In this document: positions 23,164 through 28,868 of the stretch, piece after piece
Numbering within the stretch: the first letter of the stretch is position 1
Layout of the letters: each line of letters opens with the position of its first letter
Assembly (NCBI GenBank): GCA_029564595.1
Contig: JAKQPS010000082.1
Coordinates: 112,558 to 176,557 of the forward strand
From: a bacterium
GTDB lineage: Bacteria > UBP15 > UBA6099
Direction: 5' to 3'
DNA length: 64,000 nucleotides
Made by a program: the position numbers and the translations under genes
The notes under the pieces: generated by a model
What the model was told of the DNA's origin: nothing
The model's input: the letters and a program-made list of their open reading frames with translations, nothing else
Databases searched by the model: none

Positions 23164-23402
23164 CAATTTTCCTTTCAGAGTCGCCTTTTTGAAACCGCTG
23201 ATTCGGCATTATATCCAGAATATAAGCGTCGCTCAACTTTTTTCATAAAATCCAATTGCCACAGGGAGCGGAACAAACTACTCGCGCCGCCATTTTTAAT
23301 TGAATTCATTGCGCATGAGCATTCTTTCTTGCGCCTCTCAATAACTAGTTGGATTATGTTAATATTATCCAGCGATGTTTTATAAAATGGAGGCTAGAGC
23401 GT

Positions 23403-24116
23403 ATGCGGAAAGTGCAACTTGTGAGACATACTGCCGACCCTGACAGAGTGGTAGCGCTGGCCGCCCGAATCTGTTATTCAGGGATGGAATTCGATGATTT
23501 GAATGAAAAGATAACCGATAAGGCCGCAGCCGAGCTTGTGGCAATGTTGAGGAGAATGGGACATGAGTCTCCTTTCGAACATGCTTCATTCACATTCTGC
23601 GTTGAGGGCGTCTCGCGAACGGCCACGCATCAATTCGTAAGGCATAGAATCGCCTCCTACTCACAGCAGAGCCAAAGATATGTGAAAGCCGGCGAGGACG
23701 AGAAATTCGTGGTTCCTCCTGAAATCGAAGGAAATGCCGAAGCGAAAGAGAAAGTCTCGGCTCATTATCGCGTGGCTCTAAAGCTTTACTTCGAGCTGCT
23801 AGATATGGGAGTAAAAAAAGAGGACGCCAGATACGTCCTGCCCGAAGGGGCTGAGACCCGCATAATGGCGACGATGAACGCCCGAGAGTTATTTCATTTC
23901 TTTTCGTTAAGGTGCTGCAATCGCGCTCAATGGGAAATCCGCGCGGCGGCTGTTGATATGTTGCAAGAAGCGAAAAAAGTGGCTCCGCTGATATTCGAAG
24001 GGGCAGGGCCGGGATGTTTGCGCGGTCCCTGTCCAGAGAAGGAATACTCCTGCGGGAAATCCGCTGAAGTCCGCGAGTTCTTCAAAGCTCTGGATGAATC
24101 CATCGGCAAAAAATAG
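23403..24116 (+). CDS. thyX: flavin-dependent thymidylate synthase
   Basis: About 237 residues. The ThyX signature is present as RHRIASYSQQSQRYV (the RHRx7S pattern), and HESPFEHASFTF and RELFHFFSLRCCNRAQWEIR match the FAD and dUMP regions. It methylates dUMP to dTMP using methylenetetrahydrofolate and reduced FAD, a choice common in anaerobes without ThyA. The start at ATG 23403 has GGAGG nine bases upstream; the longer frame starts at a TTG. It is divergent from the kor operon and stands alone. Confidence 0.95.
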   Translation: MRKVQLVRHTADPDRVVALAARICYSGMEFDDLNEKITDKAAAELVAMLRRMGHESPFEHASFTFCVEGVSRTATHQFVRHRIASYSQQSQRYVKAGEDEKFVVPPEIEGNAEAKEKVSAHYRVALKLYFELLDMGVKKEDARYVLPEGAETRIMATMNARELFHFFSLRCCNRAQWEIRAAAVDMLQEAKKVAPLIFEGAGPGCLRGPCPEKEYSCGKSAEVREFFKALDESIGKK

Positions 24117-24194
24117 AAATCCGATGAATGAAATCAGCCGCTAGCCAAGAAACAATAGAGCACGGCAAAGCAAAATAAAAAGCTCACAACGAAA

Positions 24195-27100
24195 TTATTT
24201 CGATTCGGCTTTCCTCTTTATTTCTTGCGCCAGTTCTCTCGTCAACTTCTGGTTATCGCGATACTTTATGGCCGCGATGCCGAATCCTAATATGTTGCCT
24301 GCTTCCCAGATTTTGACCACCTGCTGCTTGCTTATCGCGCCGTAGCTGTAGTTGTCTATCATATTCATCATCGTCAGTATGAAAGTTTCGGCCATGCAAC
24401 CTAAAGTCGCGCCTGCGGCAAGGCCGGGGATGCCGAGGTCAATATATTCGGGCAGATGCCCGACGCCTCCCTGAATAGCGAGGACATCCGGGCGTTTCTT
24501 ATATATCTCATTGGATATTGCCGGCGGCAGGCTAGCGTCGTTGACTATCGCGCCCGGTTTTATCCACGACGGGTCTATGAAAGACTGATCCGCGCTGACT
24601 GCGGAAACGACGATGTCGGCGTTGCGAAGATATTTTTTCGCGTTCGTAGTCAGGATAATGTGCGGGTCTTTTCCGTGTTTGAGTTGTATCGCTTGAAACA
24701 CTTTTTTCCCGATGTCCGAGTCGGGGCGCTGATGGAATATCGACTTGACGAGATTAGCGATTTCTCGGTCGCGTCCAGTGTAGGTTTTGTTGATAAAGTC
24801 CGCGATTTTCTGTTCGTTAAACTTGAAATCGCGCGACATGAGAGCGGCGTAAGGCAATATGATATCCTGAGCGATAGCAGCCGGAAGCCCTTTGAGCTTT
24901 TCAGGCCTTGTTCCTCTGAGGATATCGACCGCGTCTGAATATATCGTGTAGGCGACGTTTCGAAGAGATTCAACGGCGTCTTTCCGTTCCCTGCCGATAA
25001 GTATAAGTTTAGGGCAGTCCTCGCTCAGAAGGCTGGCCGTGACGCTTCCGATATTGCCTGCGGCTCCTACGACGGCGCACACGCTTTTGTTCATGTTTAT
25101 TCCCATATAGTCCGCCGCCTTGAGAACGCTCTGCCACACCAACGCGGATGTGTATGAATTTCCGCTGGTTATCCTTATGAACGTGTCGTCCATGTCCGTT
25201 CCGTTGTGAGTGACAATCGATGTGAAAGCTCCCAACCCGCATATCTGAGCGCCGAGGGTGACGCCCATGTCGACCCCTTTCTGCACGCCGTCGATAAGTT
25301 GCTGAGGATTCTCGCGCCTCAGTTCCACCATCTGTTTGGTCGTGTAGAGAAAACCGATGAAATGCGCGCGCACCTTGTCCCCGGTCCTCGGCGATTTTAC
25401 ATTGACAATGCGGTAGATGAAGCAATCCATCAGAGGAACAAGAGTGTCCCAGTACAGTTCGCGTTCGGTGCGGTTGGTTCCCGGCACAATCTCGTTTGAG
25501 AAACTTTGCAGAGACGGATCGAAGTCTTCGACTATTTGGCGGATGTCGAGCGGATGGATGAGGAACGCCATGCGGCGCGATTCGTCGAACTCCGGGTCAT
25601 GCTTCTGCGCTCTTGTGTCGATATAGGTGAAATCCTGAATATCATGGTCCGAGCCGGGAGTTTCCTTGCCGACAACAAATTTTGTGAATTCGTACCCGTT
25701 TGATTTTTTTATAATCTCGCACGCGCGGCGCAATGCGGACACCACTCTGTCGATATCCTGCCGCGATATGTAAGCGGACGGTTCGATGCGAATAATGTTG
25801 GAGGGCTTTTTCGACACCAGCGAATTTAGAGGCGGAGCGGTGCGGATATGGTGCTCGTGCAACATGTAACCCGTCATGACCGAGCCAAGGACGCCTTGCT
25901 GTCCCATTCGGCTGAAGGTGAGGGCGCTGCTGTCAGCCAGCGTGTGAAACTCAATGCCTATCATTAGTCCTTGGCCTCGTACGTCCTTAACAACGCCGGG
26001 AAACTCGCTCTTTAGTTTCATCAACTCTTCGAGGAAATATTTCCCTTTCGTTTCGATGGACTTGATAAGGCGATTATTGTCGGCAGTCAGAAGTTCGAGC
26101 GTTTTCAGCCCCACTTCGCTTGAAACCGAGTCCTCAGCGAAAGTCGAAGTGTGAAGAAGTCCGAAACGCGGGTCGTGAATCGAATCCCTAATCATCAGGG
26201 CGCCTATTTTGTGCGTGCCGCCCCCGAGCGATTTTGACAAAACTATATAATCCACCGCGTCATAATCGACCCTGTATTTTTCGATAGCAAAAAGCTTTCC
26301 TGTGCGTCCCATCCCGCATTGAATTTCGTCCAAGCCCCACTCGAAGCCGTGTTTCTGCTTAAGTTTCTGAATGCCTCTCATATATTGCTGGGAAGCCACG
26401 ACGATCCCGCCTTCGCCTTGAACAGGCTCGACTATGAGCAAAGAAACATTTAGATGTTTTTCTTCGACGATTTTGAGGTCGTTGCCCTCGACCACAAGCT
26501 TTCGGATCGTGAAGTATGAATCGTCCAGAACTTTCGAGATTTCATCGAGATTTCCGAATTCGACGAATCGGGCATCAATAGCGCTCAGACGCGCGAAAGC
26601 CTCTCGATACATCGGGTTGCCTGTAATCTGAACCGCTCCGGCAGTCTTGCCGTGGAACGAGCGCTCTGCGCATATCACCACGGGAGGCATTGATTCGAGA
26701 GTTCGCGTCTGCATTATTATGTCGCCCAACAAAGCGTCCACGCCTTTTTCCCTGTATTCCTTTGGCAGACGCAGCGCGCTGTGCATCCTGTAATAGTCCC
26801 GCATCTTGTTATAATTGCGGAACAGCGACTTGCCGATCTCCATGAAACGGTTCATGCGGTTCATTTCGGCGTGTTTAAGAAGAGCCTCCACCGCCTCCGT
26901 TCCTGAATTGGAGAACATTACAATTCTTTTCTCTTTGCCGGGATAAAGCGAACTGAGGCGAGAGGCAAGTTTCCCGGCGGATTCTCTTACCGAGCCTTGC
27001 GCGTGCATCGGGATTTCCCTGTCGACGCATTTCTTTATTACTTTTTTAATCTCAGGGTGATTGTGGCCGAGGATGGTCGCGCCGAATCCGCCGGCAAGAT

Positions 27101-27251
27101 CAAGAACGGACACATCCTCGCCGGATTCATTCTTGTAATAAAGATAATCGCCCGCGCCTCGATTGTACTCTATATCCAGCCTCAATGTCTTAAGCAGATC
27201 GTACATCATCGGGCGCGTGAAAGCGCCATAGTCGGATTTGCGATCGTTCAT
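24195..27251 (-). CDS. fusion of class III aminotransferase and AAR-like acyl-thioester reductase
   Basis: 1018 residues. Residues ~1-520 are a class III PLP aminotransferase: SNSGTEAVEALL (112-125), GLDEIQCGMGRTG (306-318) with the ring-nitrogen Asp308, and LSKSLGGG with PLP Lys340. Residues ~560-1018 resemble cyanobacterial long-chain acyl-ACP reductase (AAR): CGLGAFTSIV (671-680), ITSGNSYTSALV (694-705), the NAD(P)H Rossmann motif VVGAAGNIGS (727-736), IQGGVGHLPEYID and GCMAETFIL with Cys952 where AAR has its acyl-cysteine nucleophile. About 90 extra residues sit after the Rossmann start. Predicted chemistry: acyl thioester to aldehyde to amine, within one protein (inference). GGAAGGAG precedes the ATG. 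No operon partner is close; the Lnt-like gene is 132 bases upstream on the same strand. Confidence 0.85.
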   Translation of the reverse strand: MNDRKSDYGAFTRPMMYDLLKTLRLDIEYNRGAGDYLYYKNESGEDVSVLDLAGGFGATILGHNHPEIKKVIKKCVDREIPMHAQGSVRESAGKLASRLSSLYPGKEKRIVMFSNSGTEAVEALLKHAEMNRMNRFMEIGKSLFRNYNKMRDYYRMHSALRLPKEYREKGVDALLGDIIMQTRTLESMPPVVICAERSFHGKTAGAVQITGNPMYREAFARLSAIDARFVEFGNLDEISKVLDDSYFTIRKLVVEGNDLKIVEEKHLNVSLLIVEPVQGEGGIVVASQQYMRGIQKLKQKHGFEWGLDEIQCGMGRTGKLFAIEKYRVDYDAVDYIVLSKSLGGGTHKIGALMIRDSIHDPRFGLLHTSTFAEDSVSSEVGLKTLELLTADNNRLIKSIETKGKYFLEELMKLKSEFPGVVKDVRGQGLMIGIEFHTLADSSALTFSRMGQQGVLGSVMTGYMLHEHHIRTAPPLNSLVSKKPSNIIRIEPSAYISRQDIDRVVSALRRACEIIKKSNGYEFTKFVVGKETPGSDHDIQDFTYIDTRAQKHDPEFDESRRMAFLIHPLDIRQIVEDFDPSLQSFSNEIVPGTNRTERELYWDTLVPLMDCFIYRIVNVKSPRTGDKVRAHFIGFLYTTKQMVELRRENPQQLIDGVQKGVDMGVTLGAQICGLGAFTSIVTHNGTDMDDTFIRITSGNSYTSALVWQSVLKAADYMGINMNKSVCAVVGAAGNIGSVTASLLSEDCPKLILIGRERKDAVESLRNVAYTIYSDAVDILRGTRPEKLKGLPAAIAQDIILPYAALMSRDFKFNEQKIADFINKTYTGRDREIANLVKSIFHQRPDSDIGKKVFQAIQLKHGKDPHIILTTNAKKYLRNADIVVSAVSADQSFIDPSWIKPGAIVNDASLPPAISNEIYKKRPDVLAIQGGVGHLPEYIDLGIPGLAAGATLGCMAETFILTMMNMIDNYSYGAISKQQVVKIWEAGNILGFGIAAIKYRDNQKLTRELAQEIKRKAESK

Positions 27252-27383
27252 AGATCAAGACTCCTTCCGTTGTGAATAATCAATATATTAGCATATAGAC
27301 TCTTGAATGCGCAAATAAACGGCAAATCCCTCGCGCGTTTCTTTTGTGCGCCCTGATATTTATCTTATTCATTTGCTAGTCAT

Positions 27384-28868
27384 TTAGGCTTTTGAACGGT
27401 CTTTTTCTCTCATGGCGAAGAAAATGAACATTGGAAAAAGTCCAAGCGCGCTCGCTCCAGTCAATATCGACAGCCATGGATGCGGGGTAGATGAGTTTAC
27501 AAAGGTTGCGTCAGCGATAGCGATTGCGCGTCCGTCGGGTGGATCGTCGAGTATTCTACCTTTGTGATCAACAATTATCGCTCCATTAATGACATCTGCT
27601 TTAACTAGACTTCGCCTATGCTCCACCGAGCGGAACATCTGCATGGCGGTGTGATGTCGAGTGAGCCATTGAGCCAGATCGTCGGAGGCTATGACGAACA
27701 TCTCGGCGCCCAATGCGGCGTACTCTCTCGATACATCTGGGAAATCCGCATCATAGCAAATCATTATCCCGACCAAGCCCGCCATCGTCGATACTAACTC
27801 AATATCCGTGCCCGTCGGGCCTTTTTCGATGTCTAAAGTGGTGACTCTATGACGCTTGACATACCTTGAAGCCACCCGGCCGTTAGGGGATATCACAACC
27901 GCCATATTTTTGTATGCCGGAACCTTTTCTTTCTCTTGTCCGGGCAGGAGAGAAACATAAGTGGCCACTAGATATATTTTGTTTCTTTTTGCGATCTTGC
28001 CGATTCTCAGAGCGATATCCGGGTAATCTTCAGGGTCGACATCGATGATGGTCTCAGGCCATACAACCAGTTTTGCGCCTTCCTGCGCGGCTCGATCAGT
28101 CATCGGTTCCAATATGTCCAACGCAGTGTGAGACGCTCCCAAACGGTCGTTGTTCTTTTGTTGCTCTATCCATTTCTCAAGGCCGGGATTGTCGCTCATT
28201 TCCCTTTTAAAACCGAACTGAACAGACGCAACCTTCATTATCCCGGTGATTTTGTCCTGACGGGCGTAAAGATACATGTTAACCGCCATGAGCGCCGCCA
28301 CAATAGCGACATTCAGGGCTATATGAAACTGAACAGTTTTTAGATTCCTGATATTGGCCGCCAATAGCGCTATCGCGCAGTTGGACAACACTATCATAAA
28401 CGTTATTCCGTAAACTCCGAAGAGGCTCGCTATTTGTATGACCGCTGGATTTGTGAACTGCGACACGCCGAGCGCTCCGTACAACGCTATCGGCGAATAC
28501 TGACGGGCAAACTCTATACCGATGAAACCAGTCGCCGACAGAGCCGTGAAATAACGGAAGTTATTCTTTAACGCTATCTCTCTCTGCCAGAAAATAATTC
28601 CGAATACGACGAAAAAAGCGATAGCGGGAATCGCGTACATTATTTCATATCCGCTTGGAACCCCCCAAATCAAACCGAGCAAAAACACAGAGATGCCAGT
28701 GGAAAAAAACAACCCGAATGAAAATCTGGAAGGCGCAAGCTTCATCATTGCCACAAACATCGGAGCAAGCGCAAACCAAATCAGCCAAGAAATCTTATGC
28801 GGCGGAAAACTGAGAAAAAGCAACATGCCCGATATTGCCGACAGTATCAATCCTGTTGCAATCTTCAT
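27384..28868 (-). CDS. lnt: apolipoprotein N-acyltransferase-like membrane C-N hydrolase
   Basis: 494 residues, the normal Lnt length. The N-terminal half has about six to seven hydrophobic membrane segments; the C-terminal half is a carbon-nitrogen hydrolase domain with catalytic Glu in VVWPETIID, Lys in the YVKRHRV region and Cys in GIMICYDADFP. Lnt adds the third acyl chain to lipoproteins in the inner membrane, consistent with the lipoproteins in this window. The triad surroundings differ somewhat from textbook Lnt (no WPEAA form), so another membrane nitrilase-family acyltransferase is possible. Confidence 0.8.
   Translation of the reverse strand: MKIATGLILSAISGMLLFLSFPPHKISWLIWFALAPMFVAMMKLAPSRFSFGLFFSTGISVFLLGLIWGVPSGYEIMYAIPAIAFFVVFGIIFWQREIALKNNFRYFTALSATGFIGIEFARQYSPIALYGALGVSQFTNPAVIQIASLFGVYGITFMIVLSNCAIALLAANIRNLKTVQFHIALNVAIVAALMAVNMYLYARQDKITGIMKVASVQFGFKREMSDNPGLEKWIEQQKNNDRLGASHTALDILEPMTDRAAQEGAKLVVWPETIIDVDPEDYPDIALRIGKIAKRNKIYLVATYVSLLPGQEKEKVPAYKNMAVVISPNGRVASRYVKRHRVTTLDIEKGPTGTDIELVSTMAGLVGIMICYDADFPDVSREYAALGAEMFVIASDDLAQWLTRHHTAMQMFRSVEHRRSLVKADVINGAIIVDHKGRILDDPPDGRAIAIADATFVNSSTPHPWLSILTGASALGLFPMFIFFAMREKDRSKA

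Follow-up and report, generated by a model that had tools for sequence, protein, structure and literature searches.

What would a transaminase and an acyl-thioester reductase, joined in one chain, make in an apparently anaerobic bacterium? The question is raised by a gene on the minus strand of a 64,000-nucleotide stretch of bacterial DNA, referred to here as the window. ORF reading placed its start ATG at 27251-27249 and its stop at 24197-24195, with 1018 uninterrupted codons. The intact frame claimed by a preliminary description of this DNA was therefore upheld, and its orientation, a detail absent from that description, was added. The encoded domains run in the order class III transaminase, linker of ~40-50 aa, and AAR-like thioester reductase (Table 1). 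A comparison of 450 codons with the partial copy of a congener found 108 synonymous and 4 non-synonymous codon differences, and the fusion protein is therefore under strong purifying selection. Full-length fusion homologues, at 54-64% identity, are present in two other families of the same order. The frame is not a product of chance: its aminotransferase half matches Pfam Aminotran_3 (E 3e-61), its other half matches AAR structures (6e-10), and the full-length homologues and the 108-to-4 codon differences add to this evidence.

Table 1. Positions in the window of the fusion gene, its domains and predicted catalytic residues, and its upstream neighbor.
Feature	Residues	Window coordinates	Strand	Remarks
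Fusion CDS	1018 aa	24195..27251	-	Class III aminotransferase and AAR-like thioester reductase; TamH layout
Shine-Dalgarno-like GGAAGGAG		27261..27268	-	9 bases 5' of the fusion ATG; read directly
Class III PLP aminotransferase domain	10-520	25692..27224	-	CrmG/TamH subfamily
Helical insert of aminotransferase	131-189	26685..26861	-	In TamH and CrmG-like enzymes; absent from the other fusion subfamily
Asp308 codon	308	26328..26330	-	Invariant in alignments
Lys340 codon, predicted PLP Schiff-base lysine	340	26232..26234	-	Same column and number as PtTamH K340
AAR-like thioester reductase domain	560-1005	24237..25574	-
GxxGxxG nucleotide-binding motif	729-735	25047..25067	-	Equivalent to PtTamH G707xxG710xxG713
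Enlarged insert in Rossmann half	757-865	24657..24983	-	From alignment
Cys952 codon, predicted acyl-enzyme cysteine	952	24396..24398	-	Equivalent to PtTamH C887 by column match
Apolipoprotein N-acyltransferase (Lnt)-like neighbor		27384..28868	-	Ends 132 bp upstream of the fusion; LNT_N and CN_hydrolase; not shown to be part of the system

The two halves were assigned by sequence matches and by fold, using an AlphaFold2 model of the fusion generated from a 21-sequence alignment (pLDDT 89.7, pTM 0.82). The best 50 Foldseek matches of this model were aminotransferases only; the AAR matches came from a second comparison, by VIA-align. For the aminotransferase half, the best PDB sequence match was CrmG (5dds, E 3.5e-72), and the modeled half aligned with CrmG 5dds/5ddw at Z ~38 over ~506 residues (5ddw: Z 38.0, 507 residues). 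CrmG, the caerulomycin aminotransferase (PDB 5DDS), shares the fold and the helical insert of this half, but is a stand-alone aminotransferase without a reductase. Lys340 was present in every alignment row covering its column, and we take Asp308 to be the contact of the PLP pyridine nitrogen.

The C-terminal half matched the PigE reductase and three AAR sequences, the best AAR being 6jzq (E 5.8e-10) and the others weaker. Its match to TIGR04058 (AAR; E 2e-16) scored 60.2 bits, far below the equivalog cut-off of 449.7. Model residues 560-1005 nevertheless superposed on AAR 6JZY with Z 35.3 and rmsd 2.5 (323/342 residues aligned). Cyanobacterial AAR (PDB 6JZQ/6JZU/6JZY) has the fold of this half and its acyl-cysteine, but is a stand-alone enzyme partnered with an aldehyde-deformylating oxygenase. 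Identity as a plain dehydrogenase was ruled out by the AAR fold (Z 35) and the conserved cysteine, and Pfam matches to FolD/shikimate dehydrogenase cover a short Rossmann piece only. Only one of 33 reductase domains, that of an Embleya protein, lacks the equivalent of Cys952; the other 32 retain it. The gene for that Cys-less fusion (L049) adjoins a long ORF that, by eye, resembles a PKS. The Rossmann insert measures 109 residues in all copies from the window's order, compared with 25-79 in other fusions. Translation and alignment found Lys340, Asp308, the Rossmann motif VVGAAGNIGS (727-736) and Cys952 at the positions given by the preliminary description. Its reading of Cys952 as the catalytic acyl-cysteine was correct, the residue being the conserved equivalent of AAR Cys294 and TamH Cys887, and its pairing of a class III aminotransferase with an AAR-like reductase was confirmed by Pfam, PDB matches and fold.

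The claim that no characterised protein with this layout was known proved wrong, and we reject novelty for the arrangement. PtTamH from Pseudoalteromonas tunicata (tambjamine YP1) is a 941-aa protein with a transaminase at 1-500, a thioester reductase at 547-941, and K340, G707xxG710xxG713 and C887 (PMC9594044). Its activity was demonstrated in 2022: together with TamA, it carries C12 acid through C12-ACP and the aldehyde to the C12 amine, dodecylamine, using NADH and L-Glu (PMC9594044). TamH proteins of 941 aa, matching the published numbering exactly, were found in two Pseudoalteromonas genomes (L121 and L122), where their genes adjoin PigA/RedW-type prolyl-PCP dehydrogenase and serine-palmitoyltransferase/BioF-type genes (annotated in L121, syntenic in L122). 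The window protein resembles PtTamH in its N-terminal class III transaminase, short linker and C-terminal AAR-like reductase, in the helical insert of the transaminase, and in falling in the same clade in both domain trees. Its K340, G729/G732/G735 and C952 share alignment columns with K340, G707/G710/G713 and C887. It differs in identity, which is only 34% (transaminase) and 26% (reductase), in its very distant host, and in a Rossmann insert larger than those of other fusions. The genomic setting differs as well: genes of a tam or prodiginine cluster (PigA/RedW-type dehydrogenase, acyl-adenylating enzyme with ACP) were not identified in the ORF list of the flanks, and membership in a tambjamine pigment pathway was rejected on this basis.

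PigE (prodigiosin MAP biosynthesis, Serratia; PDB 4PPM), for which evidence of thioester reduction was published in 2021, also has both activities in one chain and a catalytic cysteine, Cys296, but places the reductase first and the aminotransferase second, the reverse of the window protein (PMC8341465). The window protein scored 356.5 bits against NCBIfam NF053554 (PigE), below the equivalog cut-off of 850. TamH takes its amino group from Glu and PigE from Orn/Arg, and therefore the donor and cofactor of the window protein cannot be deduced by likeness. A literature search for fatty-amine-forming fusions found none other than TamH and PigE.

Fusions of this kind form two subfamilies, according to whether the aminotransferase carries a helical insert of 45-70 residues. 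The insert-bearing subfamily comprises the copies of the window's order, TamH, CrmG-like enzymes and proteins of a Desulfobacterales bacterium, Myxococcota, Embleya and genome G034; the insert-free one comprises those of Syntrophomonadia, Pseudomonas, Undibacterium, Rhodococcus and others. Trees of the two domains (quick search, midpoint root, SH-aLRT as the only support, insert columns omitted for the transaminase) placed the window copy in the TamH/CrmG clade with SH-aLRT 100 for the transaminase and 94 for the reductase. Both trees give the same split, which suggests joint inheritance of the two domains. The analysis shows an unbroken frame, the expected fold in each half, a full set of catalytic residues and, for transaminase and reductase alike, common descent with TamH. 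Copies from the window's order group on their own in the trees, with two paralogues and the lineage-specific Rossmann insert. A copy was found in 5 of its 7 genomes, two of which hold two copies, and searches of two congeners, with genomes 67% and 92% complete, found no fusion. Its occurrence is patchy down to the level of the genus.

The distant, insert-free subfamily is a near-core feature of Syntrophomonadia, where 53 of 63 genomes had a match passing a threshold of E 1e-55; most of the matched frames are ~900 codons long. In the 15 loci examined, the fusion adjoins a gene for a small protein, of a single family throughout (DUF1285, from the member tested), and a DegV-family gene is also beside it in 7 of them. 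Besides the DUF1285-type and DegV proteins, the conserved neighborhood (L153-L166 and L028) includes a response regulator and a radical SAM-like protein. A search at E 1e-60 of 395 genomes from the phylum that includes the genome of L025 returned the already known locus as its sole match.

We propose that the window protein is probably a TamH-type bifunctional enzyme, converting a carrier-bound acyl group, likely fatty, to an aldehyde and then to an amine. An acyl group, probably fatty or fatty-like and carried on acyl carrier protein, would be passed to Cys952, and NAD(P)H, docked on the Rossmann motif (729-735), would reduce the acyl-enzyme to an aldehyde. The aminotransferase, with PLP on Lys340, would then convert the aldehyde to a primary amine by PLP/PMP transamination, with an amino acid such as glutamate as donor. 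The amine would probably be incorporated into a lipid or lipid-like metabolite rather than a tambjamine pigment, and an amino-lipid is a plausible product. As chemistry, the reductase and transaminase in series suggested by the preliminary description held up, given the TamH precedent, both folds and the catalytic residues. Its route to long-chain amines stands in part: the conversion of acyl group to amine is well founded, while the long chain and the amino-lipid or signaling product would be extrapolations. We infer the reaction and its direction, and likewise the chain length, carrier, cofactor, donor, channelling and fate of the amine.

Chain length is where the closest alternative arises. 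Small polar aldehydes are the usual substrates of class III aminotransferases, and that of CrmG is an aromatic aldehyde; such preferences would suit the same chemistry on a short or functionalised acyl-thioester (of diacid, hydroxy-acid or polyketide type) to give a small amine or amino acid. The equivalents of the residues lining the modeled TamH acyl and alkyl pockets are mostly still hydrophobic (F563, L568, V574, F577, I941; F56, L475, L365), but TamH L470 is replaced by Ala and L554 by Pro, so the chain length could differ from that of TamH. These replaced positions would fit the smaller substrate, as would the 3-acetyloctanoyl thioester used by PigE (PMC8341465). We nonetheless consider it unlikely, as the matched AAR fold is that of a long-chain reductase, the pocket remains largely hydrophobic, and close relatives adjoin lipid-type genes.

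The surroundings of the window copy do not form a recognisable pathway. By ORF reading its neighbors are 2-oxoacid:ferredoxin oxidoreductase, ThyX and Rnf genes, with Lnt recognised by domain match; neither an acyl-ACP ligase nor an ACP gene adjoins the fusion in the window. The Lnt-like gene is the sole Lnt match in the genome. A link between it and the fusion was judged weak, with the Lnt homologue located elsewhere in genome G004, not found in G005 and divergent in G006. Each of the three genes at positions 23349-28868 (ThyX, the fusion and Lnt) has a patchy distribution in close relatives, and ThyX was found only in G000 and G001. This pattern suggests that the run, flanked by the ferredoxin oxidoreductase and Rnf genes, is an accessory segment.

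Related copies have more telling neighbors. The orthologue in G004 (71%) is followed after ~50 bp by a sphingosine-1-phosphate (S1P)-lyase-like gene (L013:2397-3725; best PDB match 3mad, E 1.7e-133), homologues of which occur in every one of the order's seven genomes. A second fusion paralogue, in G005 and G006, follows a glycyl radical enzyme and its radical-SAM activase in an operon-like array (L010:5277-12305; L012:4193-11171). This glycyl radical enzyme has GCVEP and RISGY motifs and is eliminase-like; its N-terminal domain has the SCP2 lipid-carrier fold (for example 1ikt, Z 12.9, 111/115 residues), which was missed by Pfam and by hhalign against one sequence but detected by fold. Its orthologues occur in 7/7 genomes of the order, including without an adjoining fusion. 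S1P lyases and glycyl radical enzymes commonly release aldehydes, and with both genes so placed beside relatives, the aminotransferase might be fed mainly by these separate enzymes, leaving the AAR-like domain to balance aldehyde and acyl-thioester pools. Neither gene adjoins the window copy, however, and homologues of the lyase and radical enzyme are found in G002 and G003, genomes without a detected fusion, making this a distinctly unlikely account.

Elsewhere, Desulfobacterales and Myxococcota fusions adjoin UbiA, DUF3419, PS-decarboxylase or CarS genes (UbiA, DUF3419 and PS decarboxylase together at L025), and another Pseudoalteromonas fusion (L123) is located within a ketoacyl-synthase/ACP cluster. 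The contexts of relatives are circumstantial evidence that points to acyl-carrier and lipid substrates. In an Actinomycetota contig (L065:6339-9231), a class III aminotransferase, a Polyketide_cyc (START-like) protein and an AAR-like reductase are encoded by three neighboring genes, and this split arrangement independently supports a joint role for the two activities. The split genes adjoin GreA- and LysS-like genes (by reading), and L135 and L136 have stand-alone AAR-like genes close to GreA-like ones.

Transaminases are reversible, and some fusions of the other subfamily, which is widespread in the fatty-acid-oxidising Syntrophomonadia, adjoin acyl-CoA dehydrogenase genes (in L028 also an acyl-CoA ligase; ORF start, by eye), so that an anaerobe might instead deaminate alkylamines to aldehydes and oxidise these on the AAR-like domain to acyl-thioesters for beta-oxidation. 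This is the least probable of the alternatives: the contexts seen in the TamH clade, to which the window copy belongs, are biosynthetic; the thioester-to-aldehyde direction has been demonstrated with TamH (PMC9594044), with supporting evidence from PigE (PMC8341465); and beta-oxidation or amine-uptake genes were not recognised beside the window copy.

Our preferred reading, TamH-type amine formation, would here operate in an apparent anaerobe. A profile search for aldehyde-deformylating oxygenase (PF11266; Synechococcus control positive) found none in the window's genome, in agreement with the preliminary description, and haem-copper oxidase was not found in that genome. Absence of both is consistent with an anaerobic host, though not proof of one. 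What is new for a TamH-type enzyme is this apparent anaerobe host, the lack of adjoining pigment genes, and relatives located beside lipid genes.

Alkylamine lipids are known from bacterial membranes: Thermus and Deinococcus contain glyceroyl-alkylamine lipids, the biosynthesis of which was described as under study in a 2012 paper (PMC3398001), and our literature search found no later solution. In a probable Thermus genome (L138:4365-6026), PlsY (G3P acyltransferase) is fused to an AAR-like domain with an intact acyl-cysteine. Because Thermus and Deinococcus make these lipids, this fusion is a candidate gene for the glyceroyl-alkylamine pathway.

Published TamH-type fusions belong to marine bacterial pigment pathways. 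Related transaminase-reductase fusions are now seen in several anaerobic lineages, namely most Syntrophomonadia surveyed (distant subfamily) and the window's order (TamH subfamily, up to 2 copies per genome), and a role outside pigments is therefore likely. Tentatively, TamH-like fusions in anaerobes may catalyze the amine-forming step of a membrane amino-lipid (alkylamine) pathway, one version of which, in this order, would be an operon with the SCP2-bearing glycyl radical eliminase that couples lipid-bound radical chemistry to reductive amination. The locus is of interest chiefly for its host lineage and for the lipid-linked settings in which its relatives occur, especially the operon with the SCP2-glycyl radical enzyme, and transaminase-reductase fusions are candidate genes for bacterial alkylamine lipids.
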